Virus record (IMG/VR): IMGVR_UViG_3300032156_000034
Coordinates: 1-40,276 of that record
Source: a virus
Strand: one strand, 5' to 3'
DNA length: 40,276 nt
Shown here: one piece after another, positions 3,419 to 38,832 of the stretch
Position numbering within the stretch: position 1 is the first letter of the stretch
Layout of the letters: each line of letters starts with the position of its first letter
The notes under the pieces: model-generated
The model's database searches: none
What the model was told of the DNA's origin: nothing
Seen by the model: the letters and a program-made list of their open reading frames with translations, nothing else
Position numbers and translations under genes: made by a program

Positions 3419-3426
3419 GGCTCCTC

Positions 3427-9031: not shown

Positions 9032-9949
9032 CTAATCCTCCTTGTAACTATTAGCGAAGTCCAGCAACTTGGCTTTCATTTCCTGCTGCTTTTCTTCCGC
9101 TTCACTCCAGGCATCGCCATCGATCAATACCTGGACATTGCTTTCAACCAGGTCTGCCAGGTCCTCTGGTTTGACCGCATCCAACTCCCATGACTTGTCG
9201 CCATACTCGGCCACATAGGCATTGAAGCGGCTATCAGTTTCTTTGGCAGGGTTCTCTGGTGGGTTCCACTTCTCCACCTGGTCCATATTCAGGGCCAGGC
9301 GCCGCACATTGATCTGCTCTCCAAACATAAACAACTCCAACCGTTTGGTGATGTCGTCTGTCATGTCGATACCAGATGGGTCATGGTCGCCGAAGTAGAA
9401 TAGGTGGATGTCTTTGCCATTGCGGTATTTTTCAGCCATTCGCTGGCCGGCTTCGTACATGGCGCTGCTGGATGAGTATCCCTTGTTGGCAGTGAAGCCA
9501 ATCCCCAACTTGTTGCACACCGGACCCAGGACACCTGACAAGGCATCCTTCTCCACCATGACTTCGACATGGTTGGTTTGGTTTTCCCACATATCGATCC
9601 TGAACTGCTGGGCAGCAGCCCGCACGATCTGGCCAGGATCACGCCAGAAGTTGGGGATCACCAACTCACGACCACGGTCCTCGATCATATCCCAGTCCAG
9701 CAGGCCGGCCAGGCGGGCATTGCTCACCAGGTCACCCATGCGCTTGTAACTGCGGATGTTGTTCTTGCTGCCGGTGGCCTTATCTTCCCAGCCATCTGGC
9801 AATAAATCCCTGGCCACCAGTTGATAGTACAACTGGCGCAGGGTTAGGGTGTATCCCTGGGCGCGGTACTCATCCAGGATGGTTTCCACCTGGACGATCA
9901 GCGCCTGGCTTTGATCACTAAAACGATGGGCAATAAAGGGTTGCTTCAT
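9032..9949 (-). CDS. Spo11/TopoVI-A-like Toprim protein
   Basis: 305 aa. The N-terminal part has T-L-R-Q-L-Y41-Y42-Q-L-V, like the catalytic tyrosine motif of the Spo11/TopoVI-A 5Y-CAP domain. The C-terminal Toprim part shows E133 in V-E-K-D-A-L, a K-G-Y-S-S turn, and D188-H-D190-P-S-G, matching the acidic triad that binds Mg. This layout is known from phage and actinobacterial hypothetical proteins. DNA strand cleavage or transesterification is plausible but unproven, and no TopoVI-B-like ATPase is encoded. It is the second gene of the early operon, directly after the RHH protein. Confidence 0.68.
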   Translation of the reverse strand: MKQPFIAHRFSDQSQALIVQVETILDEYRAQGYTLTLRQLYYQLVARDLLPDGWEDKATGSKNNIRSYKRMGDLVSNARLAGLLDWDMIEDRGRELVIPNFWRDPGQIVRAAAQQFRIDMWENQTNHVEVMVEKDALSGVLGPVCNKLGIGFTANKGYSSSSAMYEAGQRMAEKYRNGKDIHLFYFGDHDPSGIDMTDDITKRLELFMFGEQINVRRLALNMDQVEKWNPPENPAKETDSRFNAYVAEYGDKSWELDAVKPEDLADLVESNVQVLIDGDAWSEAEEKQQEMKAKLLDFANSYKED

Positions 9950-19193: not shown

Positions 19194-20165
19194 TTATGAG
19201 GCCGCCATCTTGAAGTTGCAGATGCGGGCGATGGAGTAGTTGCTGATATTCAGCAGCCCTACTGCCCAGTCGATGCGGCGGAGGTACTGCGGACCACTCT
19301 CGCTCTCATTGCCATTCAAGGGATCATAAATATCAATCCCCATGCCGGCCAGTTGGATCGCCCGAACGCCATCATCCGTGTCCATGCGGACCACATACAT
19401 GCTGGTGCTATCGTTTCCGGCGTCACCAGGGTCCTCGGTGTTGGTGATGATCTCCGTGGTCTTGTCGGCTTTCAAACCGACATCGATGATGGGCACACCA
19501 GCAAAACTTGGGAACTTCTTTTCAAACATTTCGATGGTGTTATAAACCAGGCCCAGGTCACGGAGCAGGCTGCCAATCTTCCAGTAAGTGGTTTCGTTGC
19601 AGAAGATGTGCGTCGCGCCATCGCAGAACTTGACGGCTTGATGCAATCCATCAACGAAAGTCTTTTCATTGGCTGCACTGGCAAAAATCTTTAGGCTGTC
19701 CGTTGATCCCTGGAGGTTGATGGTCATGCGGGCTGGCATGTTGCTCACCCGCTTTTTCAACCCCTCGAAGGTGTCAGGATCGAGGCCACTGTCACCGTTG
19801 ATGAAGGCGTTATTGAAGGCGAAGGCAACCGCCTTGGCTTTCATTTTCATCTGTGTGATCATGGGTTTCTCGACCTTGGCATTGATCTTCTCGGCAACTT
19901 TGTCAATTTTGACATCGCCGCCCAGGAGGGCCATGCTTTCGACAATATCTTCCACGTTTCCAGAACTCTCGGTGTAACCACCACCGACTTTGCGGAAGCC
20001 CGCACCAGGCAATGTCTGCCAGCGGGAGGCGGATACCTGGAGGCCAGTCACATCGTCAAATGGAATGGCCGCCAGCAGATCGGAATATCGCAGCAGGTCC
20101 TGAATAAAACCCTTCTGGAAGGGCAACTCGCTGGCCTTCGCGATATCTACTAAACCTACGGGCAT
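19194..20165 (-). CDS. Major capsid protein (HK97-type fold)
   Basis: 323 aa, the size of non-cleaved or lightly processed HK97-fold capsids. The segment L-P-G-A-G-F-R-K-V-G-G-G-Y (about 52-64), followed by a G-G-D-V-K-I-D-K-V-A-E-K-I strand-helix and a K-x-A-V-A-F-A-F-N-N-A-F-I-N-G-D helix, is typical of the GP7-like capsid family. The C-terminus has an A-domain-like strand (T-S-M-Y-V-V-R-M-D) and a G-L-L-N-I-S-N-Y-S-I-A-R-I end. The scaffold gene is immediately upstream. The ribosome binding site is AAAGGAG. Confidence 0.85.
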   Translation of the reverse strand: MPVGLVDIAKASELPFQKGFIQDLLRYSDLLAAIPFDDVTGLQVSASRWQTLPGAGFRKVGGGYTESSGNVEDIVESMALLGGDVKIDKVAEKINAKVEKPMITQMKMKAKAVAFAFNNAFINGDSGLDPDTFEGLKKRVSNMPARMTINLQGSTDSLKIFASAANEKTFVDGLHQAVKFCDGATHIFCNETTYWKIGSLLRDLGLVYNTIEMFEKKFPSFAGVPIIDVGLKADKTTEIITNTEDPGDAGNDSTSMYVVRMDTDDGVRAIQLAGMGIDIYDPLNGNESESGPQYLRRIDWAVGLLNISNYSIARICNFKMAAS

Positions 20166-20957: not shown

Positions 20958-23900
20958 CTACCGAATAGACGCTGCAAGCAGCGCCAGGAAGCCCAAAATG
21001 GATCCTCCTGGTTTTCCGTTCTCGATCCATATCTTTTCCAACTCGGCTTGGGCACCTGCTCCCAGGTCTGATCCTGTCAGTGCGTAGTAGGCCACCTGTT
21101 GTTTTAGATTGTCAGAAGCATCGGCCAGGTAGAAATCAGCGGAGTACGCGGGGCTGTTGAAATCAGGCGGATACCAGTTTGCCAGGACCTGTTGTGCAGT
21201 AGCCTGGTTCATCCCAGCCGCTGTTCTGGTGCCATTCAAGATCGCCTGGGCAATGTATTGATCCAGGAAGGGAGCCAACTCTGGATGGTCATTGATCTGC
21301 TGCTGCTTCCAGTCCCAGTATTGCTTCAACTGCGGGAACTGCGCACGGTAAGCAGTGCGGCCCTCCACCGGCTGGGCGTAATAACCATCATTGATCGCCA
21401 TGATGTTGGGGAACATGGCCTCGCGATCAGCGTAAAACTTGTTCAAAGCCTTGTCGATGGCCGGCGGCAATCCACGCAGCGGCGTCACCGGAGCAGCCAT
21501 GGCCGCCTGGGTTTCAGGTACAGTCGGCAGGTTGGCAGCACCCAGCATCCTGGCCCAGTTTGTCAGGGTGGATGTATCTATGTTGTCGTAATTGCGAGTG
21601 GTCTTGTCAAGAAAAGCCTCCTGGAATAGGTCGCCCAGTTGTGGCCTGACTTCCCTTCTATTTGCCTGGTCCAGTGCCATGTAGCGATCCCACACCTGGC
21701 CGACCAGGTACTGGCGCATACGCACATCCGGCGGCTGACCCTTGGCCAGGTAGGCGCTGTATTCAGGATGCTTGTCGAAGAAGGCATTGACCGCATCGGT
21801 ATCGCCGCGATCCTTGGCAGCCCAGGCATCATCCCACTCGCCTTTCAGGCCACGGTATTCTAACTCGCCGGTGGGTAGCAGGTTACCACCAAAGAAACTT
21901 GGCAGCAGGGCTGCAGCACCCTGGACCACATTGCCATGCGCAGCAGCGTAGAGAGCCATGGCACCTGGAACCTTGGCAGCCATTTCCATATTGACACGTT
22001 GCCTGGCAGCCTCGAACACCGATCCGTTCCTCTGGATCATGGCCGTGATCCCTTGGTCGTAGGTGATCTCCCCATCCGCCACCATGTTGGCCAGTTGCCG
22101 ATCAATATAATAGTCGCCGTATTCGCCGTATTGCGACAGGCCGGTGGCTTTCCTGGCCAGGTTCTCTGGTGCAGCCAGCAGGCCGATGATGTCACCAATG
22201 CCCTGCATCGAGGTGCCGGCAGTGGCAGCCTTGTAAGCATTGGCTGTCCTGGTGATCGGCAGCGGGCTGATCTTGTTTGCCTGGCCGGTCAGTGCATAGT
22301 AGGGAGCCGATAGATACCAGGCTGGTCCCATGATCACATTCATGAAGTCAATGGGGTTGCTTATTTCTGCCTGGCGCCTGGTCTTTGCTTCTGCCATAGC
22401 CTTGGTGTAGGTTGGACCCTGGCCTTGCTGGGCAGCAGCCAGTTGTTCCTGGGTGATCGTGCCGGCATCCGCCCATTCCCGCAGCACCCGCTGGAGTTCA
22501 TAACCAATGCTGACCTGATCCTGCTGCATCTGATCAAACGGTTGTTCCAGGGCGGCAAACGGGAAGATGTTACGCAGCGGGTCCATGTACACAGCACCAC
22601 CCATCCAGGCCGGCAGGAAGGGCATTGGGATCGCAAACTTCTTGCGCAATCGTTCAGGGATATTCCGCTGGTAGGTGTTCTGCATTGATCGCAGCCTGGC
22701 ATAGTTGGCAAACCAGGTGGGTCGATCCAGGGCACGCAGCGCCCAGTTCATCATGGTCCGGCCATACCAAAACTGGTAGGGATAGACCACATCCAGGTAC
22801 TTATCGAAGCCGTACCTGCGGTTGTAGTTGAGCATGGCAAAGTCACGCTGGCTTTCAGCATGGCGCAGGGCAGCGATCTTGGCCGTGGCCAGGTTACCCT
22901 TGACGGTTCCTTCCAGGTAGTTATTCAACTGCTTGGTTGTGCCGGCATCCAGATTACCCATGTTGAAGCCACCTTCTTTGGCTTGGGTCATTGCCAGGTT
23001 CTTCATGCCGGTCAGCAATGGCCTGACATGATCGGTCCAGCCTTCCTGCATGATCTGTTCATCAGGTCGATCCTGGGCCACCTGGTCATAGCCACCCACC
23101 GGCGCATTGGGATCGTAGGGCGGCTGGTCCGCCTTGTAATCGTTTGCACTCTCGCCGATCTGGATACCCTTGTATTTTTCCAACTCCTTGCCCATGCCAT
23201 AATTAGTATCGGCGTCAATGCCTGTGTTTTGCTTGAAACTCGAACCATCCTGGAAGATGGCATCCATGATCAGATCACTCTTGAGGGCCTGGCGCAGCAA
23301 GGGCATCACATTCGGATCGTTGGGTACATTGATCAGGATGATCCCATTGACGCCGGTTTTCTTTGCAAATATGCGTAGGATCGCGGCAGATCGCAGGCCA
23401 ACCCTTTCAGGGGTCAGTGATACATTCATGCCCGCCATATCAGCCACGGTGATCTCCATGACGGACCGCACTGAACCACCTGACAATCCAACGACCATGA
23501 CCTTATTAGGATCAGCACCCATGTCAATACCAAACCTGGCTGCGCCTTCGGGGCTGCTGATCGCCCTTCCAAGCAGCGGGTTATGTACCATCCGTTCTCC
23601 CGCATTGTGCAGGTTATAAGGCGTGGGCACATCTTTCAGTTCGTGCGTTTCAACACGGAGATATTTATCCAGGATTGAATATTCCTCATGGTCAATTACC
23701 ACATGGCCTTTGAACAAAGGACCTAATATATTCGCTATCCCCGCTGTCATTCCACGGTCCTGCGGGCTTGGATTACTATGACCACTGGGATGGTTGTGAA
23801 GATACCACACGCCATCGGCGTCCAGGTCCCAGGCCACTTGCCTTAAGATTTCTGGTTCCTTATAAATACCTTCGGGCAAGGCTGCACCAAACCCAGGCAT

Positions 23901-26900
23901 CCTGCTGGTGGTGGCCATTTCGCCAACAACCAGGTCGCCCTTGGTATAGATCACCCGCCCCACTTCGTACAGCGGGTTGCGACATATTTGTGCAATGGTG
24001 GCCAGTTCCTTGTAGTCGTTGAAGCGCAGCCCAACCAAGGGCACATATCCCTGATCGTGAAATTTCTTGGATATTCCCAAGGCCAGGATGTCACCCTTCT
24101 TTCCAATCAAGTGCAGGGCTTCCACGGCCTTGACCCTCAAATCGAGTTCAGCCTGGGTATAGGTTGTGCCGGCTTCCTTGCCATAGACACCATCGGTATC
24201 TGCCATCTTTTTGAACAACGGTCCCAGGTCCTCGGTGGTGGTTACCTTCCTGGCGCCGATCTCCGGCCCCAAGCCAGGCATAGTCTGCTGGATAGGTCCT
24301 GCTGGCTTCGGGTTGAATATCTGCTCATCACCAGGCGTGACCGTCTTTGAAAACAGTGGCGTGTCCTGGGCACCAAACATGGCCATCTGTCCATCCTTTG
24401 CCAGGCCCTGGGAAATGGGCTGCCGGTTGGCCATGATCTCCAGGTAGCCGGCGGTGTCTGGATTGATGCTGACTTTCATCACGCTGTTCTTCACGGACCT
24501 GTAGGCACCCACCAGCCAACTTTCGTACACGCCATAATCACCACCTGGCGTATCCTTGCCGGTCTGGAAGTAGTCTGCGAAGCCCTTGGCTGCGTCCGCT
24601 GCGCTGATCCCCTGCCGGCTGGCCGGCATGGTGCGCCTGAAAATATCCCAGGTGTTCCGCACCAGGGTGGTCAGATCGGTGTGATTGAAAGCATCGATCA
24701 GGGCACGGCCATCGGCCATCAGGTCGTAGGTTGGGCGCTGATCGAAAAGGTTGTTGCCGTACAGGCGCTGCGCTTCACCCAACTCCGGCGTGATCTTGAT
24801 GGCATGTATGGTATCGGTTGTATATTTTGTCCTCATTTCCCCACCGATGATTTCTGCCATCCGGCTGCTTCCGTTCAACTCCATCACCATGCTAAAGCGC
24901 TGCGTTTCATCACCGTGTTCCAGTAGGTTCACGATGGTTTCATACTGCTTTTGCATGATAGCAGCCCCCTCAATATCAACGCGCGTGCTTGCCGTCCTCG
25001 TCATTTCCTGGATCACCGGTCCAGCCTTTTCAATAAACTCACTGGCGGTCAGGTCCGGTCCGTGGTAGTCCATGTTGGTTGTGAAAGTATCCGTGCGCAC
25101 TTCAATATCTTCTGGCACGACCCCATACTTCTTGGCGATCTTGGCCAGGTCGCTTCTCATCAGTTCGTCATACAGCGTCATGTGAAACTTGCTGCCGATC
25201 TCCAGGTCAGTGCCGGTAAACTCGCCTTCGTCCGCAGTGGCGTATTGGCTCTCGACCTTGCTCGTCATTTCTTCGCCAATATATTCAGACAGTTCGCCGG
25301 CTTGAACCTCCTTACGATCCACAATTACATCGCCTTCAAGATCGTACACGGTCAGGTAATAAGCCTCTGCCTTTTCTTTTCCCAGGGATGGGGTGGCGTT
25401 CTCCCAGTAGATGCGGCTGATCCGTTTGGTCAGTGAGTTCACATCGGATTGCTGCATCCCAGTGGTCCAGCCCAGGTAGTCGTAGCCATGATCAGCAGCG
25501 TATTTCAACATCCGCTTCATCACCATTTCATGCCAGTTGTTCACAAAGGGTGGCTTGATATATCCGCCCTCCGTGTTGCTCCTGGCCGCCGACTTCGCCA
25601 AAGTGAACCAGTCCTCCAGGTCGCGTCCCGATTTTTCCGCCCGCCGGACTTCCCTGGCATAGCGCTTGGACAAGTCGTTGTGCCTGGTGATCACAGCCTT
25701 TTCTTCGGGTGCAACTTCAACCCTGGTGCCATCGGCATTAATTATTACATCGACCACATCGTAAGCCGAATAGGCGGTGCTGGAACCCTTGGTGTGTACG
25801 ATCCTGCGGCTTCCTATTTTTTGATCGCCGTGAAATACGCCTTTCGATGTAAACGAGTAATTATTTTTTACATTTTCATCGGCTACTTGTTTGATTACCG
25901 CGCTCAACTCGTGCAACCTTTCTTCATAGGCATCGAAGTCAAAGTAGGGGTAATCAGGCAGCGGCTTATTCTCCGGCAGTTCCGTTGCCCAGCCGGTATG
26001 CAGACCCTTCTCGATCCAGTCGGTCTGGATTTCCTGGACCATGGCGACCTTGCCACTGGTCTTATCTTCAACGTGATCCGTCATGCGGGCGTGTGCCAGA
26101 ACATCCGGCTCCTCCCAGTGGCCACTGATAAATCCCCTGTTTCTTTCCGCCGTATTCAAAATGTTTTTTATTCTTATGTAATCTGTGTCTAATTTTTCAA
26201 ACCTGCGCCTGGCACTCTTTGCTTCCAGTCGAAGCGGGTTGCTATCGATCATCGCCAGGTTGTCGTCATACTGCTTGTTCAGATCCGCCAGTTCATCCTG
26301 CAGTGATTGTGCCACGCCATAATCATCGCCAGGCATCCGGCGGTTGGCATCTATTTCCCATTTCTTGTTGTCGATCAGGCTCAATAAATCCCATCGCTTG
26401 CCATCCAGGTCATATATCTTGACATTCAACTCCTCGACTTCCTTGGCCGCAGCCTGGGACATATCATTGATCTTCTCTGCAGCAGCGGTCAGACCAGGAT
26501 CGACTGGCCTGGTTTCGGGATGCCAGACAAGTTCCAGTTCGGTGTAGTTGGTGCCACCATGGACGGCAATATAATCCCTCCACTTGGGTTCTGGCCCAGG
26601 TTCAAACTCTGGCGTAAAGCCGCGCATCAAGTTGTCGCCAAACGCTTTCGCCTCATCAAGGCTCGAAAATACCATGCTATCGGCAGGAAGTATTGATGAT
26701 CGCACAAAAAACTTATCAACCCACTCCCCGCCTATTTTGTTTCTTATGTTCCGTATCTCCACCGTTGGTGTGCCAAACACGCGTTCTTTGGTTCCTGTGA
26801 CAGGTCCAGGATATTCAACATTTTCTGGCACATAAGCATGGGCATAAAACACTTTATTTTCCCGATCAATCCCGCCCCAACTCACATCCTCCCACTCTAT

Positions 26901-29900
26901 TCTCATATCCTTGTAGGGGGTTGGCACTGTTTGCTTCCTGCTTGGCCGCCAGACTTCCTCGATCTGCACCGGCGTCATGGCTGTAAGCGCTTCTTCTCGG
27001 GTGATCTTCTGGCCCTGCTCCAGGCCATCCATCCATTCCTGCAGGCCAGTGTAGATCAGTTCATCCTTTTTGATGCCGGCTGTCACCAGCATACCCTGCA
27101 GTTGTTCGGCGGTCATGACCTTCTGGCTGATTGCCTGGATGGATCGCTGCAACTTGCTGTACCATGGTTGTCCTGGAGCCAGGCGGTATTCATTGCCCCC
27201 ATCTTTCAGGATGTTGGCCACACCCTTGCCCCAGGTTCCCTGGTTCCACACTGACTTGATCTGATCCTTGTTGAACAGGATGTAGTGGATAGTGTCCGGC
27301 ATGTCCTGGTACATGGTAGTGAAATAGTCCACCGGCTTCAATACCGCGCCATCATAGCCCAGGTTCTTGATCACTTCCTGGACAAACTGCCGATCCAGGA
27401 TGGCCCATTCATTGTTCCATTCGCCATCTATGCCAGATAACTCTGGCATGTACATCATGGCCTTGATCACATCCTTGACCAGTGGTGGCTGGTCCATCCA
27501 GTCTGGAAATCGCTCCTCGATAGAGGCCATTACAACATCAGCCAATGTGTGGGATGGTCGCTGCCCTATCCTGTTATCCCTTTCGCTTTCAAACGCATAT
27601 CTTTTATTGTTTACGCCAAGTTCGTCAGCAGCCTGCTTCACCGCTTCATGTAGTTTCAACCAGGTGCCAGTGGCTGCGTCATAATCCATTTCGCCATCTG
27701 CACCCATGGGAATATCCAGGGTAAAGCGCTCGTTGCCGGTGCCGGTCATATCCAGGGGAGTTTCCATCTTGGGGATCACTGGCATGACCACACCCTGGTT
27801 GGTGCGTCCGATCAGGGTGCCGGCAAACATCTGCGCTTCATCATCGCCGTAACGGGTGGCCATATAGTTCAACGCATTGCCATTAAACTCGCCCTCGCCG
27901 TTCTTCCACACTTCAATATCTGCCTCGATCTCAATCTCTGACTTGCCAGTAAACCTGGCAATCGCAGGGATATGTTCCTCGGGATCAGTGTTCATCAGGT
28001 TGTCCAGGGCGCCTTCAAGTTTTATGAGCCGGTCCTGGGCTTGTGGATGGGCGTAATGCACATTGGCATCCTCTGGATTGGAGGTTAGGTAATAAGCCGC
28101 ACCCAGTTGGCTATCCACAGATGATGGCCTAAACTCCTCGAAGCCAGCCAGCGCACCATGGTAGCCGATCACTGTGTTGCCTGCCTTGTCGATCAGTTTA
28201 TTGCCATGGTTCCATTCCTGGAAAGCACCGTTGCCGATGTAAGTGCCCTTGGGTTCGGAATAGAAGTTTGCCGGCCTGTGCGCAAATAACTTGAAACCCA
28301 TCAACCGGAGATCAGCAACTTTCATATCACCCCTGTACAGGTGATGAGAGAAATCTCGAATAAAACCTATGTCTTGGTCGGTTGGAAAATCAATACGGAT
28401 GGCATACAGTTCATTGCCCTTGACATCGTGATAATGCAGCCACATCCCAGTAAGTTCTTTGTTATAACCTGTTCTAGGACCTCCCTCCAAAGCACGGCGC
28501 AGCGCATGTATCTGGCTGGAGGATGGCACCGTGTTGTATATGTCCAGTTGCAAGTTCTTGCCAGTGCTGTCGTTGTAATATCTCACGGTGATCGCACCGG
28601 TGTTGCTGTCGAAATAGGTTTCTGGCGTAAGGGTGAGATCGTCCGCAATATCGGCGGGTGGGAACGCCTGGGAAATTTCCGAATATCGCCTGCCGCTTCC
28701 TTTATCCCTAAAGTCCAGTATGCTCCCATCTTCCAGGATATATCCTTCGGCTCTTGGTTCTCTTGTCGTGCCAAAAAGCCGGATCGCCTCCTCCACAAAA
28801 TCTGGCCGGCTGGCCGTGCCATCCAGATCGACTGGTGGCTTGTCAGCGTGCTGGGCGCGTACATCAGCCAGGGCGCCATCATCTTTCAGGCTGTTGTAAT
28901 AATGCAGATCGCCCACATCATCGTAGGCTGCTTTTGGTTCACCCAGCATCCCACGGTGCGCGCTAAACTTGCGATTAGCCAGGTGTTCCATGTCGGTCCG
29001 GCTGCCAACCCCACCGTACACGGAGGCAGTAAACTCACGCAGCGCTTTCAGGTCCTCCGTGGTGGGATTGTTGATCGAAATTGAGTAAAGAGAGTCACCA
29101 TAACCGCTATTGATGTCCACCACCATGAGTGATGGAACGGTGTGATCAAAGATCGCCTCATTCAGCGCTCTTATCTGATCCGTGCTTGGCACGGTGCCAT
29201 ACAGATCGAGTTGCAAAACATCATCACTGAACCAGGACATGCGGATTGCGCCAGTGTTGCTACCCATTTGTGACATGGGGGTTCCGGTATCAGCAAACGC
29301 ATTGCCTCTCTCTGTTTCTGGTAACACAAAGCCAATCTCTCGGTGATCCAATGCCCTGGTGCCCGCTGGTCCGCCTTCTTTCTTTCCGCTAAAGTCCAGC
29401 ATCCTTCCATCGTCCAGGATATAGCCGGCTTCCCTTGGATCGTCAGTGGTTCCAAAATAATCCACGGCTGCCTCGTTCCATTCGCCGTGATATTCCTGAT
29501 TGGCAAAAGCATCACGCGCCGCGGTCAGCCTGTTATCATCCCATACATTGACCTTGACTTCCACATCTGGATCGGTGTAGTAGGATAGGTTGCTTTCCTT
29601 GATCAGTTTAGGACCGTTCTGGCGCCAGAACTCATCCGGCGTGCTGTTGTTCCACTTTGCCCACTCGTCAGCCACACTATCATTGGCTGCCAGGATCGCA
29701 TCCGCATGATCCGGCGTCATACCGTGTTCCTGCACCATGATCTCTTTCATGGTCTGCTTGGTCAGGATGATGTCGGCATGTTTCTCTGTGTTATAGGTGG
29801 CGCGCTGGCTTTCGATCCGCAGGCCATCGGCCTGGGAACCAGTGATACGCCGTGACAAATCTTCCAGCAGCGCATTGTAAGCCTCTGCCACTGGTGCCAT

Positions 29901-32900
29901 CTTCTCTGCAGCCATCATCCCATCAGGGAAACTATTGGCCCAGGCTTCTGTTTCCTGGAGCAGCCCCTGGAGTTGGGCGGCCTTGTTCTCTGGCAGCGCC
30001 GTGTTGTTGATCTTCTCCATGGTGGCCCGCAGGCTGGCCATCTTGGCCAGGTCGATCTCCGGCCTGTACAGGTGCAGCGTCAGGTTCTGCTGCATGGCAT
30101 CCAGTAGTTCAGGGGTGATCCCCTCACCGGACATAACCAGGGTGCCGGCGATGTCTGCCAGGTCTTTCTCCAGCCGTGTCTTTGGCTCCTGGCCATTGCC
30201 CAATTTCTCCAGGGCAGCCATGACTTTTTCACGATCTGCTTTCAGATCACCATACCAATCAGGATAACTGGATGGAATACCACGCCATTCGGTTCGTTCT
30301 TCTCCACCTGGCCCAAGTGTTGTAAAACTCTCACGCCGGCCAGGTTCGCCGATCTCCACCAGGGCACGCATGTCTTTATAAATGCCAGTGTAAGTATCGG
30401 CCAGGTCTTTTGGCCAGGATGATGGCGGCAACCTGCCGGCTTCTCCCCTGGCCCTGGTCCATTCGTCTATCGGCATATTGAGTTGATCGATTATTCTTGC
30501 AGACGCTGGAGGCTGTCCTTCACCTTTTGGTAGTTCGGGTCGGACGGCCACCATACCCTGACCACTTCGCCGCCTTGCCATGGCTTCGGCGTCAGCGAGT
30601 TCAGTGACACCGCTTGGTCGTTGCCCTTTGCCAGTAATGGCATGGGCTGATTGCTTTTGGGCATTGATTTCTTGGTAGGCGCTGTCGAAGCCGTCACCTG
30701 GGTACTTCCCTTGATTTTCTGCAGCAGCCGTGTAAATATCGAAGCCTTGGAAGTAGTGCGTTTCGCCATTGGCATCCCTCACTTCTACGATCACCTCGGA
30801 TACATCCTTCGCGAGGCGCTTCAAGAGATTTTTCATCTCCTGGGGTTTTATGTTTCCGTACATCACAAACTCATCACCGCCGGCCCTGGCAATGCTCACG
30901 CCTTCCGGTAGTGCCTGGGCCTGCTCCACCCATAATTTCAACAGCAGATCGCCGGCAGCATGGGAGAAGTTATCGTTGATCCATCCCAGTCCCTGGACAT
31001 CGAACACACCAACGGTCTTGGCTGCAGCAATATCCTGGAACACATACCCCTTGATCGGAATACCCAGCATGGGGTCATTCTTCATGGCGGCCAGGCTCTT
31101 ATCCTGGGCAGCCACCTGGGCACGGAGATCGGCCAGTTCTGCGTATCGACCCTTGGGATTGGGTCCAAACTGCGTGCCATCGATCATCGTCTGTGCCTGG
31201 GTGGGCGTGAGTTTCGCAATGAAGTCAGCATCGTAACCCAACTCATCCAGGGCAGATCGCATCCCTTCGGTCATGACCGTTGCCGGACCAGGCTTATTGC
31301 TGGGGGTATAGCCAGCCAGGATACGCTGTGCTTCCTCGGATCGCTCGGCCAGGTTGCCCGTGGTGAACACATCACTGCCGGCTTCTCTGTGCTTGTTCAG
31401 CACATTGATCAGTGCCCTGTTCATCGGTTCGCCGGACTTATTGACCAGCGGGATACCCTTCTGCGCAGCCAGGTCCATGATTGGTTTCACCAGGTTGGTT
31501 GCCTCGGCATTGGTAGCCTGGACCTGCTTCTGGACTTCGGGATCGAACAGGCCGGCACCCTTGATCGCTTCCCAGGCTTGATCTGGCGTTATGGCATTGA
31601 TCTGCTCGGTTGTAAATCCCAGAGATCGCAAATCGCCTTCCATTTTCTTGGTAACCATGACCGGCACACGCGCTGCGCCAGCGGGTTGCGGAGCAGCAGG
31701 CGGAGGTGTAACAGGTTCGCCAGGCGTTACATTTGGTGTAACAAGTGTTACATTTGGTGTAACGGGTGGCACCCTGGGTGCGGTTGGTCCAGTGGGTTCT
31801 ACTGGAGGCAGGCCGGCTGCAGTACGCTGGACAGCCTGGGCGCCTTCCTCTTTCAGGCGCTGCAACTCCACGATCATGGGATACAACTCATCGCTTTTGA
31901 ACTTGGTCCAGGCAGCATGGCGATCATCCCAGGGGATTGTTTCCAGGTTCTGCCGGAAGTATTGTATTCGCTTCCACATTTCATCCCGCATGGCAATGAC
32001 CTTATCGTACTCGGTCTTGGCCACCGCACTGGCAGCATCGCCCAAGGTGCCCTTCACCATCTTGGCAATGGCAGTGCTGATCTTCTGCTGCTGTTTGACA
32101 GCCGCCTCGTAGGTTTCCTGGAACTTCTTGCTGATCGCCGCTTTCATTTCGTCCCTGGCTGCGTATCTACCAGGCGCATCCCAGTCACCCTTGTACTTAT
32201 CCCAGTAGGCAGCAGCCAACTCGGCTCGATACTTGTAGGCATCGTTCCAGAGTTTATCGTGCGCAGCCAGGCCGGCCAGGAACTGATCACTATCCATGCC
32301 CCTGATCCGCAGGCCCTCTATAATCCCAGCGTATTGGTTCAGCCGGTTGCCATTGATCCGATCCCATTCCCTGCCGCTGGTTCGGTAAATCTCCTCGACC
32401 ATGAGCCGGCGCATTTCCATGGGTAACTGGTCCATGGCTTCAAAGCCGGCGCCAAACATTTCATAGTGATCGATCCAGCGATCTGTGTAAGACATTTCGA
32501 TATTGGAGATCAGCGCGGTTATCTCTGCCGGCTGCATCACGATCCGGTTGCGCATCTGTTCCGCACTCACCTTGGCGCGCTGGCCTGCCATCAGGTCCAT
32601 TGCATCCTGGGCTTTCTTCTCTGCAGCAGCAAAGGCGGCATGGATTTTGCTTTCCGTCAGCGGTCCTTCGGTCCTGAAACCTGCGTCCAGTTCATCCAGC
32701 ACACCCAACTGATCCAGCATGGATAATGCCGTGTCGCCATCGATCCCCATGGCGCGGGCTGCATCCTGGACCAGGCTGCGCGCCTGGACCTGCACCTGCT
32801 GGCTGGACAGGCTGGTTCTGATCTCGTCCAGGTTCATCCCGCCCTGGATCGCACGGTACACCAGTTCGGTCCGTTCAGGACCCAATGCGGTGACCAGTTC

Positions 32901-35708
32901 AGGCGGCAACGGGTCGATGCTTCGCCCCACCTGCCATAACCAGCCCATGGTCCGCTTCATGTCGATGATAAAAGCGTTCTTGCTTTCGATCCGTTCTGCT
33001 GCACCGGATAACCTGGAGAAGATACCGACCTTGTTATTGATCTTGCCCAGGGTGTCATATACCCTGCGCATCATGCCAGTAGTTCCCCAACGCACATCCG
33101 CCGATTTGCGGGCAGCGTCATTGATCCTGGCATCACCGATCATGCCAATGCCTTCATTCAGGCGGGCAGGCGTGATCCCAAAGCGATCCAGGAAGATATT
33201 GGCCTGGCGGGCGGTCATGTAACCGAAGTTGCCAGTGACTATCCTGGTGAAGATGTTGTTGGTTTCGTTATTGATCAGGTACATCGGGTTGAAACCCAGC
33301 AGCACCAGGGTCTGCGCCCGCTTGGCAATGTTGGCCAGGCGGAACACAGGGCTTTCCTTCTCCACGCCAAAGTAGTTCACCGCCCAGTCGGCATAGTGTT
33401 CTTTCAGTGCCCCTACGATCATGGCCTTCAACTGGCTGGGGTGCCACGGTACATCGCCATCGTAGAATACCTTAACCAAGCCGGCCAGGTCCTCTGCTTT
33501 GAGCATCCCGCTGTCAATCGCCTGGATCAGTGACCGGCTCTCTGGTGTTGCTTTACCAGTCGCTTCCAGTTCAGCAGCCCGATGCCTGATTGTTTTCAGG
33601 TCCAGGTCAGCATCTGCCCTGGCACCCATGTCGTCCAGGACCTTGCCTGGTTCCTCGCCCAGGATCGCCGCGATCCGCAGCAGAGTATTCCTGTTATCGT
33701 CTGCCATGTGATACAGGCCATACAGTGCTTCGATCCTGTCCTTCACGCCTTTCAATGCCGGCAGGAAGGTGTACCATTCGGGGCTGTTGGTGAGTTTGGT
33801 ATTGAGTTCTTTCAGCATTTCATAGTCGCCATCAGAAATGCCGTTCAGATATTTCCTCATCCCATCCACATCGTCACCAAACAACCACATCATGGCTGCC
33901 AGGTTATCTTCCATGATCCCCTGACCCATGACCGCCTTGCTCTCTGGCGTCAGGCCAAAGAAGTTCTTTATCTTGCCGATCAGGTCCGTCCTGGTGTTGG
34001 CGGGCGTCCACCATTTCAGCCTGCCTTCCTGGGTCAGACCAGCCAGGTTGCGCTCCAGTGGGGTAAGCGCCTTGACATCGTACTCACCGGATAACACCAG
34101 TGCTTTGAGCCTATTGATCGTGGATACAAATCCGGTAGCCTGGAATAAGTTTTGAACATGGCCCAGCAGACCACGGCTGGTCATGTAAGGACCTTCGGTG
34201 GCTTTCACCAGGAGTTCGCTGCCAGTAAGATGGCCAATGCCTCTCATGATCTTGCGCTCACCCCAGGGCAGCGCTTGCAACGGATCTGAAATTATCTGCT
34301 GCAGCATCCCCCTGGCTGTACCAGTCAAACCAAACTTGTTGATCGTGTCCAGTTGCACATCCACTGGGTCCTCGCCGGCCATGATCCGGCGCCTGGCTTC
34401 GGTCAGTGCCAGTACACCGTTCTCTTGCATCATCGGCTTGGCTGATCCCATCACCCATACTTCACCAGCATTGGCGATCTCGCCTCTTTCCCTGGCGTCC
34501 CATAAAACCTTTAGGATGTGATCGGGCCGTATGTCAAAACCGTTTGTTTTGAAATCATCTATGATCGTGGCAGCCATTGGGATCAGGTTGATGAAACTTG
34601 GAAAATATACGCTGCCTTCTTCTGCTGCAATACCGGCCTGGTATGACGCTTTCAGATTGGTCAGCACCTCGGTTACTGATCCATACTTTTCAGGCTCTTT
34701 GGCACCATAAACTAACTGCGGAAGGAAGCCAAGTATCTGTTCCACAACCTGGCTGGGGAACATCATGCCTTGCTGGACGATGGATGCGCCCTGTGCCAGT
34801 GGTTTATATTTGCTGGTAGTCGCCCATCCAGATACTGCACCAATGATCAATGGCAATAAGAAGCCGGAGATCGCGCCTGGGATCGCACCAACACCAGCCC
34901 CCGCCAGTAATCCCGCTCCTGCACCAGTGGCAGCACCGGCTAATGCCATCGGTAATGAACTAGCCACACCCTGGGCAATCGGTTGGCTCATGATATTGAA
35001 TACCATGTGCTGCCATTCTGGCAACTTGGTCCAGTCGAAATTGGTGTCCGCCCTCATGGCTTCCTGTATCTCGCGGGGATATTTCCTGATGTCAAAAGTT
35101 TTAGAAGTCAGGATCGCCCTTCTCTGCATGTCCGGTAGTGTGTACCAATCAAAGCCTGGTTGGCTTTTCAGGTTCTCGGCAACTTGGTCAGGATTGGCAT
35201 AGCGCGCATCATTCGGCCACAAGAAGGCATTGGGTGGTGGTTCCATCGCAGCCAGGTAAGCATTGCCAGGATCATCAGCCGGCAGCCATTTCCACTCATC
35301 GGTTGGCTTGTTTCCGTTGCGATACTTGAACCAATCATAAGCAGCCTTGACCTTCTTAACATCCAGCCAGGCCGGCGGCGTCCAGCCCTTGGGTGCAGCC
35401 TGGATCACAGAATACATGCGCGCCACGCGATAAGGGTCCTGCCAGAAGGTTGGCACATAGCCCATCTTTTGGGTGGCCAGTTGTGAAATCGTTTTCAGAC
35501 TACCAGGGCGCCATCCGCGTTGGGTTGCAACATTGTTAAATACCTCATACCCGCGATAGAACCTGTCGTAATCACCTGTTGGTAGGTAATTATCTGATCC
35601 CCGTAATTGATCACCAGTGATCGCTTCGTTCTTGATCGTGCTTTTCAGATCGCTCCCTGGTTCCTTGTCAGGATCAGGTCCTTCGATGGGTATGTTGGGC
35701 ATTACCAT
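20958..35708 (-). CDS. Giant polyvalent virion-type protein, 4,916 aa (GGDEF, ART-like, pseudo-zincin, JAMM)
   Basis: One unbroken frame covers 37% of the genome. In order: an N-terminal part with a Gly/Ala-rich hydrophobic segment (about 248-290), helical regions (L-G-F-N-P-M-Y-L-I-N-N near 805), and a proline/threonine linker (about 1303-1340). The GGDEF domain (about 1545-1700) has D1570, N1578, D1587 and G-G-D-E-F at 1610-1614. A domain duplicated in tandem follows (from about 2080 and 2307; both F-G-T-T-x-x-x-R, G-Y-I-L-D/E-D-G, L-D-F), then an ART-like domain (Y-H-G 2516-2518 to about 2820). A phage polyvalent module has H-W-x-E-P and E-I-Q-T-D-W near 3197 and W-H-E-M near 3392. A degenerate zincin lies near 3678 and a RadC-like JAMM domain at H3971-x-H3973, D3984. 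The C-terminus (Y-P-Y-Q-F-W-Y-G-R near 4310) resembles LPD38-type regions. Its place between portal and scaffold fits an ejected internal virion protein. The start has AAAGGTG. Confidence 0.85.
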   Translation of the reverse strand: MVMPNIPIEGPDPDKEPGSDLKSTIKNEAITGDQLRGSDNYLPTGDYDRFYRGYEVFNNVATQRGWRPGSLKTISQLATQKMGYVPTFWQDPYRVARMYSVIQAAPKGWTPPAWLDVKKVKAAYDWFKYRNGNKPTDEWKWLPADDPGNAYLAAMEPPPNAFLWPNDARYANPDQVAENLKSQPGFDWYTLPDMQRRAILTSKTFDIRKYPREIQEAMRADTNFDWTKLPEWQHMVFNIMSQPIAQGVASSLPMALAGAATGAGAGLLAGAGVGAIPGAISGFLLPLIIGAVSGWATTSKYKPLAQGASIVQQGMMFPSQVVEQILGFLPQLVYGAKEPEKYGSVTEVLTNLKASYQAGIAAEEGSVYFPSFINLIPMAATIIDDFKTNGFDIRPDHILKVLWDARERGEIANAGEVWVMGSAKPMMQENGVLALTEARRRIMAGEDPVDVQLDTINKFGLTGTARGMLQQIISDPLQALPWGERKIMRGIGHLTGSELLVKATEGPYMTSRGLLGHVQNLFQATGFVSTINRLKALVLSGEYDVKALTPLERNLAGLTQEGRLKWWTPANTRTDLIGKIKNFFGLTPESKAVMGQGIMEDNLAAMMWLFGDDVDGMRKYLNGISDGDYEMLKELNTKLTNSPEWYTFLPALKGVKDRIEALYGLYHMADDNRNTLLRIAAILGEEPGKVLDDMGARADADLDLKTIRHRAAELEATGKATPESRSLIQAIDSGMLKAEDLAGLVKVFYDGDVPWHPSQLKAMIVGALKEHYADWAVNYFGVEKESPVFRLANIAKRAQTLVLLGFNPMYLINNETNNIFTRIVTGNFGYMTARQANIFLDRFGITPARLNEGIGMIGDARINDAARKSADVRWGTTGMMRRVYDTLGKINNKVGIFSRLSGAAERIESKNAFIIDMKRTMGWLWQVGRSIDPLPPELVTALGPERTELVYRAIQGGMNLDEIRTSLSSQQVQVQARSLVQDAARAMGIDGDTALSMLDQLGVLDELDAGFRTEGPLTESKIHAAFAAAEKKAQDAMDLMAGQRAKVSAEQMRNRIVMQPAEITALISNIEMSYTDRWIDHYEMFGAGFEAMDQLPMEMRRLMVEEIYRTSGREWDRINGNRLNQYAGIIEGLRIRGMDSDQFLAGLAAHDKLWNDAYKYRAELAAAYWDKYKGDWDAPGRYAARDEMKAAISKKFQETYEAAVKQQQKISTAIAKMVKGTLGDAASAVAKTEYDKVIAMRDEMWKRIQYFRQNLETIPWDDRHAAWTKFKSDELYPMIVELQRLKEEGAQAVQRTAAGLPPVEPTGPTAPRVPPVTPNVTLVTPNVTPGEPVTPPPAAPQPAGAARVPVMVTKKMEGDLRSLGFTTEQINAITPDQAWEAIKGAGLFDPEVQKQVQATNAEATNLVKPIMDLAAQKGIPLVNKSGEPMNRALINVLNKHREAGSDVFTTGNLAERSEEAQRILAGYTPSNKPGPATVMTEGMRSALDELGYDADFIAKLTPTQAQTMIDGTQFGPNPKGRYAELADLRAQVAAQDKSLAAMKNDPMLGIPIKGYVFQDIAAAKTVGVFDVQGLGWINDNFSHAAGDLLLKLWVEQAQALPEGVSIARAGGDEFVMYGNIKPQEMKNLLKRLAKDVSEVIVEVRDANGETHYFQGFDIYTAAAENQGKYPGDGFDSAYQEINAQKQSAHAITGKGQRPSGVTELADAEAMARRRSGQGMVAVRPELPKGEGQPPASARIIDQLNMPIDEWTRARGEAGRLPPSSWPKDLADTYTGIYKDMRALVEIGEPGRRESFTTLGPGGEERTEWRGIPSSYPDWYGDLKADREKVMAALEKLGNGQEPKTRLEKDLADIAGTLVMSGEGITPELLDAMQQNLTLHLYRPEIDLAKMASLRATMEKINNTALPENKAAQLQGLLQETEAWANSFPDGMMAAEKMAPVAEAYNALLEDLSRRITGSQADGLRIESQRATYNTEKHADIILTKQTMKEIMVQEHGMTPDHADAILAANDSVADEWAKWNNSTPDEFWRQNGPKLIKESNLSYYTDPDVEVKVNVWDDNRLTAARDAFANQEYHGEWNEAAVDYFGTTDDPREAGYILDDGRMLDFSGKKEGGPAGTRALDHREIGFVLPETERGNAFADTGTPMSQMGSNTGAIRMSWFSDDVLQLDLYGTVPSTDQIRALNEAIFDHTVPSLMVVDINSGYGDSLYSISINNPTTEDLKALREFTASVYGGVGSRTDMEHLANRKFSAHRGMLGEPKAAYDDVGDLHYYNSLKDDGALADVRAQHADKPPVDLDGTASRPDFVEEAIRLFGTTREPRAEGYILEDGSILDFRDKGSGRRYSEISQAFPPADIADDLTLTPETYFDSNTGAITVRYYNDSTGKNLQLDIYNTVPSSSQIHALRRALEGGPRTGYNKELTGMWLHYHDVKGNELYAIRIDFPTDQDIGFIRDFSHHLYRGDMKVADLRLMGFKLFAHRPANFYSEPKGTYIGNGAFQEWNHGNKLIDKAGNTVIGYHGALAGFEEFRPSSVDSQLGAAYYLTSNPEDANVHYAHPQAQDRLIKLEGALDNLMNTDPEEHIPAIARFTGKSEIEIEADIEVWKNGEGEFNGNALNYMATRYGDDEAQMFAGTLIGRTNQGVVMPVIPKMETPLDMTGTGNERFTLDIPMGADGEMDYDAATGTWLKLHEAVKQAADELGVNNKRYAFESERDNRIGQRPSHTLADVVMASIEERFPDWMDQPPLVKDVIKAMMYMPELSGIDGEWNNEWAILDRQFVQEVIKNLGYDGAVLKPVDYFTTMYQDMPDTIHYILFNKDQIKSVWNQGTWGKGVANILKDGGNEYRLAPGQPWYSKLQRSIQAISQKVMTAEQLQGMLVTAGIKKDELIYTGLQEWMDGLEQGQKITREEALTAMTPVQIEEVWRPSRKQTVPTPYKDMRIEWEDVSWGGIDRENKVFYAHAYVPENVEYPGPVTGTKERVFGTPTVEIRNIRNKIGGEWVDKFFVRSSILPADSMVFSSLDEAKAFGDNLMRGFTPEFEPGPEPKWRDYIAVHGGTNYTELELVWHPETRPVDPGLTAAAEKINDMSQAAAKEVEELNVKIYDLDGKRWDLLSLIDNKKWEIDANRRMPGDDYGVAQSLQDELADLNKQYDDNLAMIDSNPLRLEAKSARRRFEKLDTDYIRIKNILNTAERNRGFISGHWEEPDVLAHARMTDHVEDKTSGKVAMVQEIQTDWIEKGLHTGWATELPENKPLPDYPYFDFDAYEERLHELSAVIKQVADENVKNNYSFTSKGVFHGDQKIGSRRIVHTKGSSTAYSAYDVVDVIINADGTRVEVAPEEKAVITRHNDLSKRYAREVRRAEKSGRDLEDWFTLAKSAARSNTEGGYIKPPFVNNWHEMVMKRMLKYAADHGYDYLGWTTGMQQSDVNSLTKRISRIYWENATPSLGKEKAEAYYLTVYDLEGDVIVDRKEVQAGELSEYIGEEMTSKVESQYATADEGEFTGTDLEIGSKFHMTLYDELMRSDLAKIAKKYGVVPEDIEVRTDTFTTNMDYHGPDLTASEFIEKAGPVIQEMTRTASTRVDIEGAAIMQKQYETIVNLLEHGDETQRFSMVMELNGSSRMAEIIGGEMRTKYTTDTIHAIKITPELGEAQRLYGNNLFDQRPTYDLMADGRALIDAFNHTDLTTLVRNTWDIFRRTMPASRQGISAADAAKGFADYFQTGKDTPGGDYGVYESWLVGAYRSVKNSVMKVSINPDTAGYLEIMANRQPISQGLAKDGQMAMFGAQDTPLFSKTVTPGDEQIFNPKPAGPIQQTMPGLGPEIGARKVTTTEDLGPLFKKMADTDGVYGKEAGTTYTQAELDLRVKAVEALHLIGKKGDILALGISKKFHDQGYVPLVGLRFNDYKELATIAQICRNPLYEVGRVIYTKGDLVVGEMATTSRMPGFGAALPEGIYKEPEILRQVAWDLDADGVWYLHNHPSGHSNPSPQDRGMTAGIANILGPLFKGHVVIDHEEYSILDKYLRVETHELKDVPTPYNLHNAGERMVHNPLLGRAISSPEGAARFGIDMGADPNKVMVVGLSGGSVRSVMEITVADMAGMNVSLTPERVGLRSAAILRIFAKKTGVNGIILINVPNDPNVMPLLRQALKSDLIMDAIFQDGSSFKQNTGIDADTNYGMGKELEKYKGIQIGESANDYKADQPPYDPNAPVGGYDQVAQDRPDEQIMQEGWTDHVRPLLTGMKNLAMTQAKEGGFNMGNLDAGTTKQLNNYLEGTVKGNLATAKIAALRHAESQRDFAMLNYNRRYGFDKYLDVVYPYQFWYGRTMMNWALRALDRPTWFANYARLRSMQNTYQRNIPERLRKKFAIPMPFLPAWMGGAVYMDPLRNIFPFAALEQPFDQMQQDQVSIGYELQRVLREWADAGTITQEQLAAAQQGQGPTYTKAMAEAKTRRQAEISNPIDFMNVIMGPAWYLSAPYYALTGQANKISPLPITRTANAYKAATAGTSMQGIGDIIGLLAAPENLARKATGLSQYGEYGDYYIDRQLANMVADGEITYDQGITAMIQRNGSVFEAARQRVNMEMAAKVPGAMALYAAAHGNVVQGAAALLPSFFGGNLLPTGELEYRGLKGEWDDAWAAKDRGDTDAVNAFFDKHPEYSAYLAKGQPPDVRMRQYLVGQVWDRYMALDQANRREVRPQLGDLFQEAFLDKTTRNYDNIDTSTLTNWARMLGAANLPTVPETQAAMAAPVTPLRGLPPAIDKALNKFYADREAMFPNIMAINDGYYAQPVEGRTAYRAQFPQLKQYWDWKQQQINDHPELAPFLDQYIAQAILNGTRTAAGMNQATAQQVLANWYPPDFNSPAYSADFYLADASDNLKQQVAYYALTGSDLGAGAQAELEKIWIENGKPGGSILGFLALLAASIR

Positions 35709-36487: not shown

Positions 36488-36865
36488 TCAGCCTCCTTCC
36501 GGTAAGGTAGGTCCTGGTATTGTTTGGCCTGCAGGAGCAGGGATAACAGAAGTACCAGGTTGATTAGGTAATGGCGCAGGCGGTGGGATCGCTGCTGCGC
36601 CTGGGGTTTGCTTGGCGTGATCACGTTCTATCCTCTCGATCATGGCCTTGGCGGTTGCATACTTGGCAGGATCAGCCTTCTGCACCATGGCATGTACCTC
36701 TGGCGGCGTGGAATACCACTGCTGGAGCGCCTGTTCGTCCGCCAGGGCCAGGGCCATCTCCTGGATCGGTGCGGTCCACTGGGCATCGAAGTCTGCCAGC
36801 CAATCTTCAAACTCCAGGATGCCGGCCATGGCTGCATCTTGGCTGTCAAACATATTGAGTGGCAT
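36488..36865 (-). CDS. Small virion-block protein, 125 aa
   Basis: The N-terminal 85 residues are helical and acidic (F-E-D-W-L-A-D-F-D-A-Q-W, I-Q-E-M-A-L-A-L-A-D-E-Q-A). The C-terminal 40 are Pro/Ala-rich and probably disordered. The start codon overlaps the portal stop (TAATG), so it is likely coupled to portal. The function is unknown; it could be a portal or scaffold accessory. Confidence 0.65.
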   Translation of the reverse strand: MPLNMFDSQDAAMAGILEFEDWLADFDAQWTAPIQEMALALADEQALQQWYSTPPEVHAMVQKADPAKYATAKAMIERIERDHAKQTPGAAAIPPPAPLPNQPGTSVIPAPAGQTIPGPTLPEGG

Positions 36866-38832
36866 TAGTCACCTCCGCCTTGTGGTGCGCCAGGTGGTGT
36901 CAATCCACCAGGCGGAAGGGCAGGCAGGGCACCAGCCTGAACACTGGGCAATCCGCCTTGACCCTGGCCTTCAAGTCCAGGACCAGGCTGGCTGGGTTGG
37001 CCGGCTCCGGCTGCAGCAGCCATGGCTTGTTCTTCGGGTGATGGTGCTGGTCCATTCGGTCCTTGCTGCTCACCACCTGGCGCTTGTCCTCCACCAGGTT
37101 GGCCTTGACCTTGACCCTGGGCTTTTGCCCTTTCCATTTCCGCCTTCTGCTGCATGGCTGCCATCTTCTGCTTCAATCTCTCCATAAGCATGGTCAGGTC
37201 AGTCTGGAAGCGTGCCAGGCTTGCACCTTCGTACCATATCTGTCGCTGCTCATCATCCGACTGGCCGATCTGCAAGATGTTGGATCGTGCCCATGCTTTG
37301 GACACCATGGGATCAGGTCCCTTGGTCAGCATGGTGGCCAGGTTTCCGGCCTGCAGTTTATCCTGGGGCAGGTCCACTTCCACCTTGACATCAAACTCCA
37401 GCAGGTTGGGGATGTCGTCAGGGTTGATCTCCAGGCTTTCCTGGGTGCGGTTGGTAATCTTGGTCTTGCCTCCGGCTTCTTTGATCCATCGGAAAGCCAG
37501 TTGCATGGCAGTGTTCAAAGCAATGGCCATGGCTTCCTTCACTGCGACTAGGGGAAGCCGGCCTTGCTGGGCGACCAGGCTGGTGTAACTGAAATTGCCT
37601 GCGCCTTCCGGTGCCAGACCCAGCGCCTGGGAGTACATGGTGGTTTGGTCCATGAACTGTTTGGCCAGGGTAAGCAACTGGATCACATCAGGGTTGATCA
37701 TTTCCTTGGCCAGCGGTTTCAGGTTGCTGCCAGGTGGGGTGATTACCACGCCGCCCACCTTGCTGGTATCCAGGCGGAATGTATCATCCTTCTGACCTTG
37801 CTGAAAGTGAAAGGTCGCATTAAGCAGGGCTGCAGCATTGGTAAAGGCCACGGTCAGGATCGTGTTCTCGCGATCATACACGCCTGACTTCACAGCACCA
37901 TACAGCATCGGCTCATGTTCACGCTTGGCAATAGTAGTAAGCCGGCTGCCCTCTGGCCGGACCGCAACCACTGGGATAAACGACAGGCCGTGTGGTTCGG
38001 CATAAACTGGGTGATCCATCTTCTCCTCGATCCACACATAGCGATAGGTGTCACCCCATAGGCTCTTGATCGTCACCCACTCATCTGGTTTCATAGTCTG
38101 CAGAAGATCATCTACTCGGCCACCCCATTCGGCCAGGACATCAGCCACCTTCTTCTTGACCTTTTGATAGTAGTAATCCATGCCAGTGCGACCACGCACT
38201 GCCTCTGCTGATCCTGGATACAGACACTCGAATAAGATCGGTGTCATTTCGTTGATCCGTTCTGCCTTCTTTAGCCGGCCCTTCCAAGTTGCTTTCGCCG
38301 CAGGTGTTTCGGCCTTGCTCAAAGCATCCTTCATGTTCGTCACGATGTCGGCAGTGCTGACCAGTTCCAGGTGTATCTCATCGTACAGGAAGCCAGAGAA
38401 GGCCATTTCCTTTTCGGTCTTTAGTTGGGCGATGGCATTGGACCGCAGCCACATCAGGTTGGCAGCCTTCTCCAGGGTATCGCTGATCTTGTCAGACTTC
38501 CTGGCATTTGATTTCCTGGGCACTTCCCAACTTGGACTGGTGGCAGTAAGCAGCCGGACCGCGCCCTTCACCTTGTCATGTCCATCAGGGCTGATCGTTG
38601 TTTTCACATCTGGATCGCCGCTGCCGCTGTTCCAGTCCATGTAATAGATTTCTTCGTATTCCTCGAAATCCGATACCTTGTCAGATATGTTGGCATCCAG
38701 GGCAGTTACCAGGGTTTTCGCTTCCTTCCAGCCATCCAAGTCATACTCATACACACCTTCCTGGATCGGTTCTGCCTTGGGTGCAGGTGCGGTTGCGGAT
38801 GTTGGTCTTTCTGAAATCTTTTTATTTGCCAT
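36865..38832 (-). CDS. Portal protein
   Basis: 655 aa, directly downstream of terL. The order clip/wing/stem is suggested by: Y-Y-M-D-W-N-S-G near residue 43, a helix with S-G-F-L-Y-D-E-I-H-L-E, W-V-T-I-K-S-L-W-G-D-T-Y-R-Y-V-W-I-E, G-L-S-F-I-P-V-V-A-V-R-P, and a long amphipathic helix region (about 420-470) of the stem type. The C-terminal 100 residues are Gln/Gly/Pro-rich low complexity (G-Q-G-Q-G-Q-P-G-G-G-Q) after a K-Q-K-M-A-A-M-Q-Q-K helix, as in podovirus portals with barrel helices. The ribosome binding site is AAGGAG. Portals form the dodecameric DNA entry ring. Confidence 0.83.
   Translation of the reverse strand: MANKKISERPTSATAPAPKAEPIQEGVYEYDLDGWKEAKTLVTALDANISDKVSDFEEYEEIYYMDWNSGSGDPDVKTTISPDGHDKVKGAVRLLTATSPSWEVPRKSNARKSDKISDTLEKAANLMWLRSNAIAQLKTEKEMAFSGFLYDEIHLELVSTADIVTNMKDALSKAETPAAKATWKGRLKKAERINEMTPILFECLYPGSAEAVRGRTGMDYYYQKVKKKVADVLAEWGGRVDDLLQTMKPDEWVTIKSLWGDTYRYVWIEEKMDHPVYAEPHGLSFIPVVAVRPEGSRLTTIAKREHEPMLYGAVKSGVYDRENTILTVAFTNAAALLNATFHFQQGQKDDTFRLDTSKVGGVVITPPGSNLKPLAKEMINPDVIQLLTLAKQFMDQTTMYSQALGLAPEGAGNFSYTSLVAQQGRLPLVAVKEAMAIALNTAMQLAFRWIKEAGGKTKITNRTQESLEINPDDIPNLLEFDVKVEVDLPQDKLQAGNLATMLTKGPDPMVSKAWARSNILQIGQSDDEQRQIWYEGASLARFQTDLTMLMERLKQKMAAMQQKAEMERAKAQGQGQGQPGGGQAPGGEQQGPNGPAPSPEEQAMAAAAGAGQPSQPGPGLEGQGQGGLPSVQAGALPALPPGGLTPPGAPQGGGD

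Follow-up and report, generated by a model that had tools for sequence, protein, structure and literature searches.

A predicted two-lobed RadC-type JAMM module in a giant polyvalent-type viral protein

RadC is widespread and probably misnamed. Here we describe a RadC-like JAMM domain in a giant protein of 4916 amino acids (aa) encoded by IMG/VR virus record IMGVR_UViG_3300032156_000034, a linear viral contig of 40,276 nucleotides (hereafter the window). Active JAMM enzymes of eukaryotes are supported by an inactive MPN partner, as in the pairs Rpn11-Rpn8 and BRCC36-KIAA0157. For the RadC clade, the passages of Iyer et al. 2017 (PMC5512222) on this clade propose that it may act on nucleic acids or nucleotides, and state that RadC is confined to the polyvalent proteins of conjugative elements.

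The window module resembles the RadC of those polyvalent proteins in being a RadC-clade JAB domain inside a large multidomain protein of an invading element. It differs in residing in a phage-type chain and in having a second lobe predicted to be dead, of which the same passages make no mention. Ordinary RadC/UPF0758 proteins (PF04002; structure 2QLC) share with it the fold and the E/HxH/S/D residues, including HNHPSG, whereas the window domain is part of a 4916-aa chain with a second RadC-fold lobe and no Pfam helix-hairpin-helix. The JAMM residues, the overall fold and an active/inactive pairing are also features of the JAMM/MPN+ proteases (AfJAMM, PfJAMM1, AMSH, Rpn11) and their inactive MPN partners, but the fold match to these is much weaker (Z 8.7 or less), the two window lobes share one chain, and peptidase activity is here putative. 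A JAB protein encoded on a Nitrosomonas plasmid (NZ_CP133084, WP_107787995.1) has the two-lobe module end to end, with 29% identity over 321 columns, although there it has a gene of its own (368 aa), which follows an ArdC-MPTase gene in a transfer region.

A predicted catalytic lobe and its predicted inactive neighbour

An earlier note on this DNA had proposed the RadC-like JAMM domain and suggested profile searches with PF04002 and PF14464; the former and the predicted fold bear the proposal out. The whole protein matches Pfam PF04002 (RadC, cut-off 22.1 bits) with 24.7 bits (E 2.3e-5), a 358-aa piece of it does so with 28.9 bits (E 1.2e-6), and the match is also found in a six-frame search (E 8.6e-9). 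The Pfam helix-hairpin-helix domain is not matched in the giant protein. With PF14464 (Prok-JAB), the window remains above E 0.01, a value reached by 3 of the 34 rows of the module alignment. This alignment joins the window to 33 homologues taken from viral and bacterial loci, and its rows fall into 21 clusters at 50% identity. E3915, H3971, H3973 and D3984 are invariant in all 34 rows and S3981 is present in 33; the window keeps all 13 invariant family columns at ~30% identity. H3971, H3973 and D3984 are exactly where the earlier note had placed them (codons at 23796-23798, 23790-23792 and 23757-23759, respectively), but the JAMM glutamate is not the E3930 named there. The E3930 column reads H18/Q9/E3/A2/S1/T1, so that only 3 of 34 rows have a glutamate versus 34 of 34 for E3915, and E3930 was rejected. 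The conserved glutamate of ordinary RadC proteins (from a Rahnella plasmid, a Cytobacillus plasmid and Geobacillus phage GR1) also aligns with E3915 which, by the published JAMM mechanism (PMC300881), would act as the acid-base catalyst. A bare H-x-H-x(7-13)-D pattern is present a second time in the giant protein, at residue 2425, and the pattern alone therefore proves little; the evidence lies in profile, conservation and fold.

As phmmer against PDB sequences returned 2QLC at E 0.32 as the sole relevant match, a fold search was needed. The AlphaFold2 model of the two-lobe module, built on the 34-row alignment, has a mean predicted local distance difference test (pLDDT) of 71 and a predicted template modelling score (pTM) of 0.50. 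Residues 71-197 of this model match RadC 2QLC (Foldseek E 4e-6; VIA Z 15.1, root-mean-square deviation (rmsd) 2.4, 119 aa), well ahead of the next entry, PfJAMM1 (Z 8.7); bacterial BubCD (Z 8.1) is a further secondary match. By profile, conservation and predicted fold, the domain is a RadC-like JAMM domain.

Immediately downstream, there is a predicted second RadC-fold lobe which, like the zincin relic and the recurrence of the module documented below, is absent from the earlier note. In the module model, the order of helices and strands largely repeats after lobe 1. Predicted alone, residues 4040-4167 reach a pLDDT of 85.9 and a pTM of 0.81, and their best fold match is again 2QLC (Foldseek E 3e-4; VIA Z 12.1, rmsd 2.4, 107 aa), the next having a Z of 5.0. 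In a profile-profile comparison (P 2.9e-4, probability 40%), the two lobes align in register, starting at the N-terminal helix and reaching as far as the HNHP position. No HxH is present in lobe 2 in any of the 34 rows and, as the RadC fold is predicted for both lobes, the ~300-aa module is predicted to be a fused pair of one active and one dead RadC domain in a single chain.

Recurrence in viral and bacterial elements

With the module as a single sequence, neither a search of IMG/VR nor tblastn over 50,697 deposited phages yielded any relatives. Among plasmids, tblastn led to a conjugative one from Nitrosomonas whose 368-aa JAB protein is 28% identical (E 1e-21), and with this protein added as a second query row 58 loci were obtained, 38 from bacterial assemblies and 20 viral, the latter corresponding to ~18 distinct contigs once copies are removed. 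The modules of two viral loci, L086 and L077, have no full-length match in deposited phages. The viral status of L077 to L096 is that given by IMG/VR, with the neighbours checked for four; L088 and genome locus L072 represent one stretch.

At the viral loci, the module lies inside giant open reading frames (ORFs), mostly of 2.1-4.8 thousand aa and of up to 4784 codons. Several of the 11 JAB-bearing chains scanned also have LPD38, ddrB-ParB, InPase, RelA/SpoT or ART-PolyVal, polyvalent domains of the phage type, and virion structural or internal-virion genes adjoin the module giant at L083, L084, L086 and L087. The presence of RadC in many phage-type giants revises the published statement that confines it to the polyvalent proteins of conjugative elements. 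At the bacterial loci, most of them in Nitrosomonas, the module is a stand-alone gene, directly preceded in 33 of 38 cases by an ArdcN-MPTase-PolyVal homologue, with gaps between the ORFs of -180 to +9 bases. From this neighbour and from one typed plasmid, we infer that these loci are mostly conjugative elements. In a tree of the module, the stand-alone copies lie to one side of a branch with good support, and diversity is higher among the giants; the window's module is not firmly placed and the deepest branches are not settled.

Two of the viral giants have further features. A single 2749-aa chain (L089:5213-13462) combines ddrB-ParB, RelA_SpoT and RadC. A 4698-aa giant (L093:2888-16984) has four HExxH motifs in addition to RadC, and the adjoining integrase gene suggests a temperate phage or an integrative element.

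The giant protein and its probable cargo

The virion context assumed in the earlier note is borne out as far as gene position goes: the genes for the large terminase, a putative portal protein (for which no PHROG match was found), the giant protein and the major head protein lie together (Table 1), the giant gene being flanked by those for the terminase and the major head protein. A related giant gene has a similar position in podovirus MW202608, and further relatives were gathered by searches with the terminase and the C-terminal shell (C-shell). Both ends of the giant protein (window residues ~43-1465 and 4199-4908) are conserved in these relatives and the middle varies from phage to phage, as expected if the middle is cargo. 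The middle has LPD5, LPD1 and zincin motifs in relative P0002, and GGDEF-like, ART-PolyVal-like and RadC domains in the window. RadC exceeds its curated Pfam cut-off; ART-PolyVal (E 7e-6) and GGDEF (E 6e-4) are below theirs. The large chain combines several effector domains that are unrelated to one another (RadC, ART-PolyVal, GGDEF and the zincin relic) and its gene lies beside virion genes, which is the architecture that PMC5512222 calls a polyvalent protein. Judging by the position of its gene, the giant protein probably travels in the virion and is injected along with the DNA.

Table 1. Features of the window around the RadC-type module
Feature	Residues of giant protein	Position	Strand	Basis or remark
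Terminase large subunit		38842..40275	minus	
Putative portal protein		36865..38832	minus	Position and size only; gene order similar to MW202608
Giant polyvalent-type protein		20958..35708	minus	4916 aa, single open frame; related giants found
N-terminal shell	43-1465	31314..35582	minus	Common to relatives
GGDEF-like cargo domain	1569-1647	30768..31004	minus	AGGDEF motif; under Pfam cut-off
ART-PolyVal-like cargo domain, partial	2507-2554	28047..28190	minus	Under Pfam cut-off
Zincin metallopeptidase relic	3655-3757	24438..24746	minus	Alignment with intact relatives; profile match
RadC-like JAB lobe 1 (JAMM E3915/H3971/H3973/S3981/D3984)	3893-4027	23628..24032	minus	Pfam, AlphaFold2, 2QLC match, conservation
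Codon of conserved JAMM glutamate	E3915	23964..23966	minus	E in 34/34 rows and three ordinary RadC proteins
HNHPSGHSNPSPQD	holds H3971, H3973, S3981, D3984	23757..23798	minus	
RadC-fold lobe 2	4040-4167	23208..23591	minus	INVPND at HNHPSG position; HxH ligands absent
C-terminal shell	4199-4908	20985..23114	minus	Common to relatives; 35-49% identity in closer ones
Major head protein		19194..20165	minus	PHROG 212, E 3.8e-50

Relative L029 has a stretch similar to the GGDEF-like one; the DNA may enter together with a cyclic-dinucleotide enzyme. Residues ~2060-2320 of the giant protein (~28749-29531, minus strand) include two similar stretches, YFGTTDDPREAGYILDDGRMLDF and LFGTTREPRAEGYILEDGSILDF, that look like a tandem duplicated domain, and residues 2086-2215 have a 41% match to an annotated methyltransferase of Rhodobacteraceae phage LS06-2018-MD07. 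The giant of the cyanobacterial Dolichospermum phage Dfl-JY45 (L014:5259-12422) shares a duplicated stretch with residues ~3175-3537. Outside the giant gene, the protein encoded at 9032-9949 has a strong match (E 3.9e-109) to a PHROG named DNA topoisomerase.

Candidate substrates and the decayed zincin

About 230 residues upstream of the intact JAMM domain, the giant protein has a decayed zincin, in which RNTWD (residues 3684-3688, bases 24645-24659) stands in place of HExxH and the third-ligand glutamate is also gone. An HExxH zincin precedes the C-shell in ten distinct relatives, and the majority of relatives keep the zincin. A profile of the intact zincins finds the window relic at E 1.5e-8 (on a one-sequence scale) and gave no match in 200 shuffles or in the reversed sequence. 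The RadC module is located between the relic and the C-shell, a stretch of ~515 residues here versus 134-285 in most relatives. In relatives L023 and L029, neither a zincin nor RadC is detectable.

Motif, conservation, recurrence and gene position, as returned by the searches and alignments, together with the predicted fold and duplication, make it likely in our view that the module is a JAMM metal hydrolase of the RadC type with two lobes, of which lobe 1 is catalytic, and that it is cargo of a giant polyvalent protein, probably virion-packaged and injected; packaging, injection, metal binding and hydrolysis are inferred. In this mechanism, the giant protein would be packaged in the virion and enter the cell with the DNA. 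Zinc binding and activation of water are predicted for lobe 1 (E3915, H3971, H3973, S3981 and D3984) and lobe 2, by analogy with inactive MPN partners, probably completes or orients the active site. The step served would be establishment of the incoming element, the module hydrolysing a target that phage and plasmid alike meet just after entry; a ubiquitin-like conjugate would be a less likely target than nucleic acids, nucleotides or the very protein that is delivered. A number of points weigh against this assignment. No biochemical work on a JAB domain of the RadC clade is known to us. Domain packing is uncertain in the two-lobe model (pTM 0.50) and its termini are of low confidence, and sequence-only support for the lobe duplication is modest (the 40% probability above). 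RadC is absent from all other records fetched via the terminase or the C-shell and, as those shell-sharing giants do without it, the module is an accessory.

One reading, which we regard as tentative, follows the proposal for the RadC clade: in a newly entered cell, the module would act on nucleic acids or nucleotides. Its sequence and fold are of the RadC and not of the ubiquitin-peptidase type, the passages on domain context in PMC5512222 and PMC3482391 argue for nucleic acid processing, and in conjugative-type elements the module gene directly follows that for the ArdC-MPTase; ArdC of pSa is cited in PMC5512222 as being transferred along with the DNA. The literature consulted, however, reports no RadC nuclease activity, and the DALI relatives of a RadC-like domain are metalloproteases rather than nucleases (PMC11981726). 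That the module counters Bil- or CBASS-type defence by removing ubiquitin-like tags, as put forward in the earlier note, is improbable and the least favoured of the substrate readings. The complete set of JAMM residues and the secondary matches of lobe 1 to PfJAMM1 and BubCD speak for it, but RadC is a far better fold match, the window has no PF14464 match at E 0.01 and RadC, according to the RadC passages of PMC5512222, is unlikely to have the groove for a ubiquitin tail. A relic or chance motif without function is very improbable: decay does occur in this protein, as the zincin documents, and the bare HxH...D pattern does recur in it, but 13 invariant columns kept at ~30% identity, a strong fold match and a profile score above the cut-off are hard to reconcile with this.

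A further reading is self-processing, in which the zincin died and the JAB module inserted before the C-shell took over cutting the giant chain into its working parts. Both HExxH and the third ligand are gone from the relic, whereas the JAB site is complete; the module occupies the stretch that is longer than in most relatives, and zincins are thought, according to PMC5512222, to process polyvalent proteins. Against this, HExxH (counted as a motif and not as a fold) is still present in 8 of 13 complete JAB-bearing viral giants, and a general role of JAB as a zincin substitute was rejected for this reason; L023 and L029, with neither domain, indicate that processing may not be needed; and no cleavage site was found. 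A G-x-YDQ stretch, located where the C-shell starts, was considered as a JAB cleavage motif and rejected as evidence, being present in relatives without JAB and absent from unrelated JAB giants. We also know of no peptidase activity for the RadC clade, and consider self-processing rather doubtful. More speculative, and unlikely, is the extended proposal that the fused active/inactive RadC pair of phage polyvalent proteins constitutes a distinct enzyme class that here replaced the decayed zincin as the protease freeing injected effectors; if true, this would be the first peptidase role known to us for a RadC-clade JAB domain. As one and the same chain has both a dead zincin and, next to it, an intact JAB site, the processing hypothesis lends itself to direct testing. 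For the reaction of RadC itself, a compact module of ~300 aa that has an invariant residue set and is found in phage giants as well as conjugative elements offers a tractable starting point.

The 3486-aa giant of one relative (L015:2154-12611) contains a pair of HExxH motifs, with LPD1 after the second, and the extra material lies between the first zincin and the C-shell, the stretch that houses the RadC module in the window.

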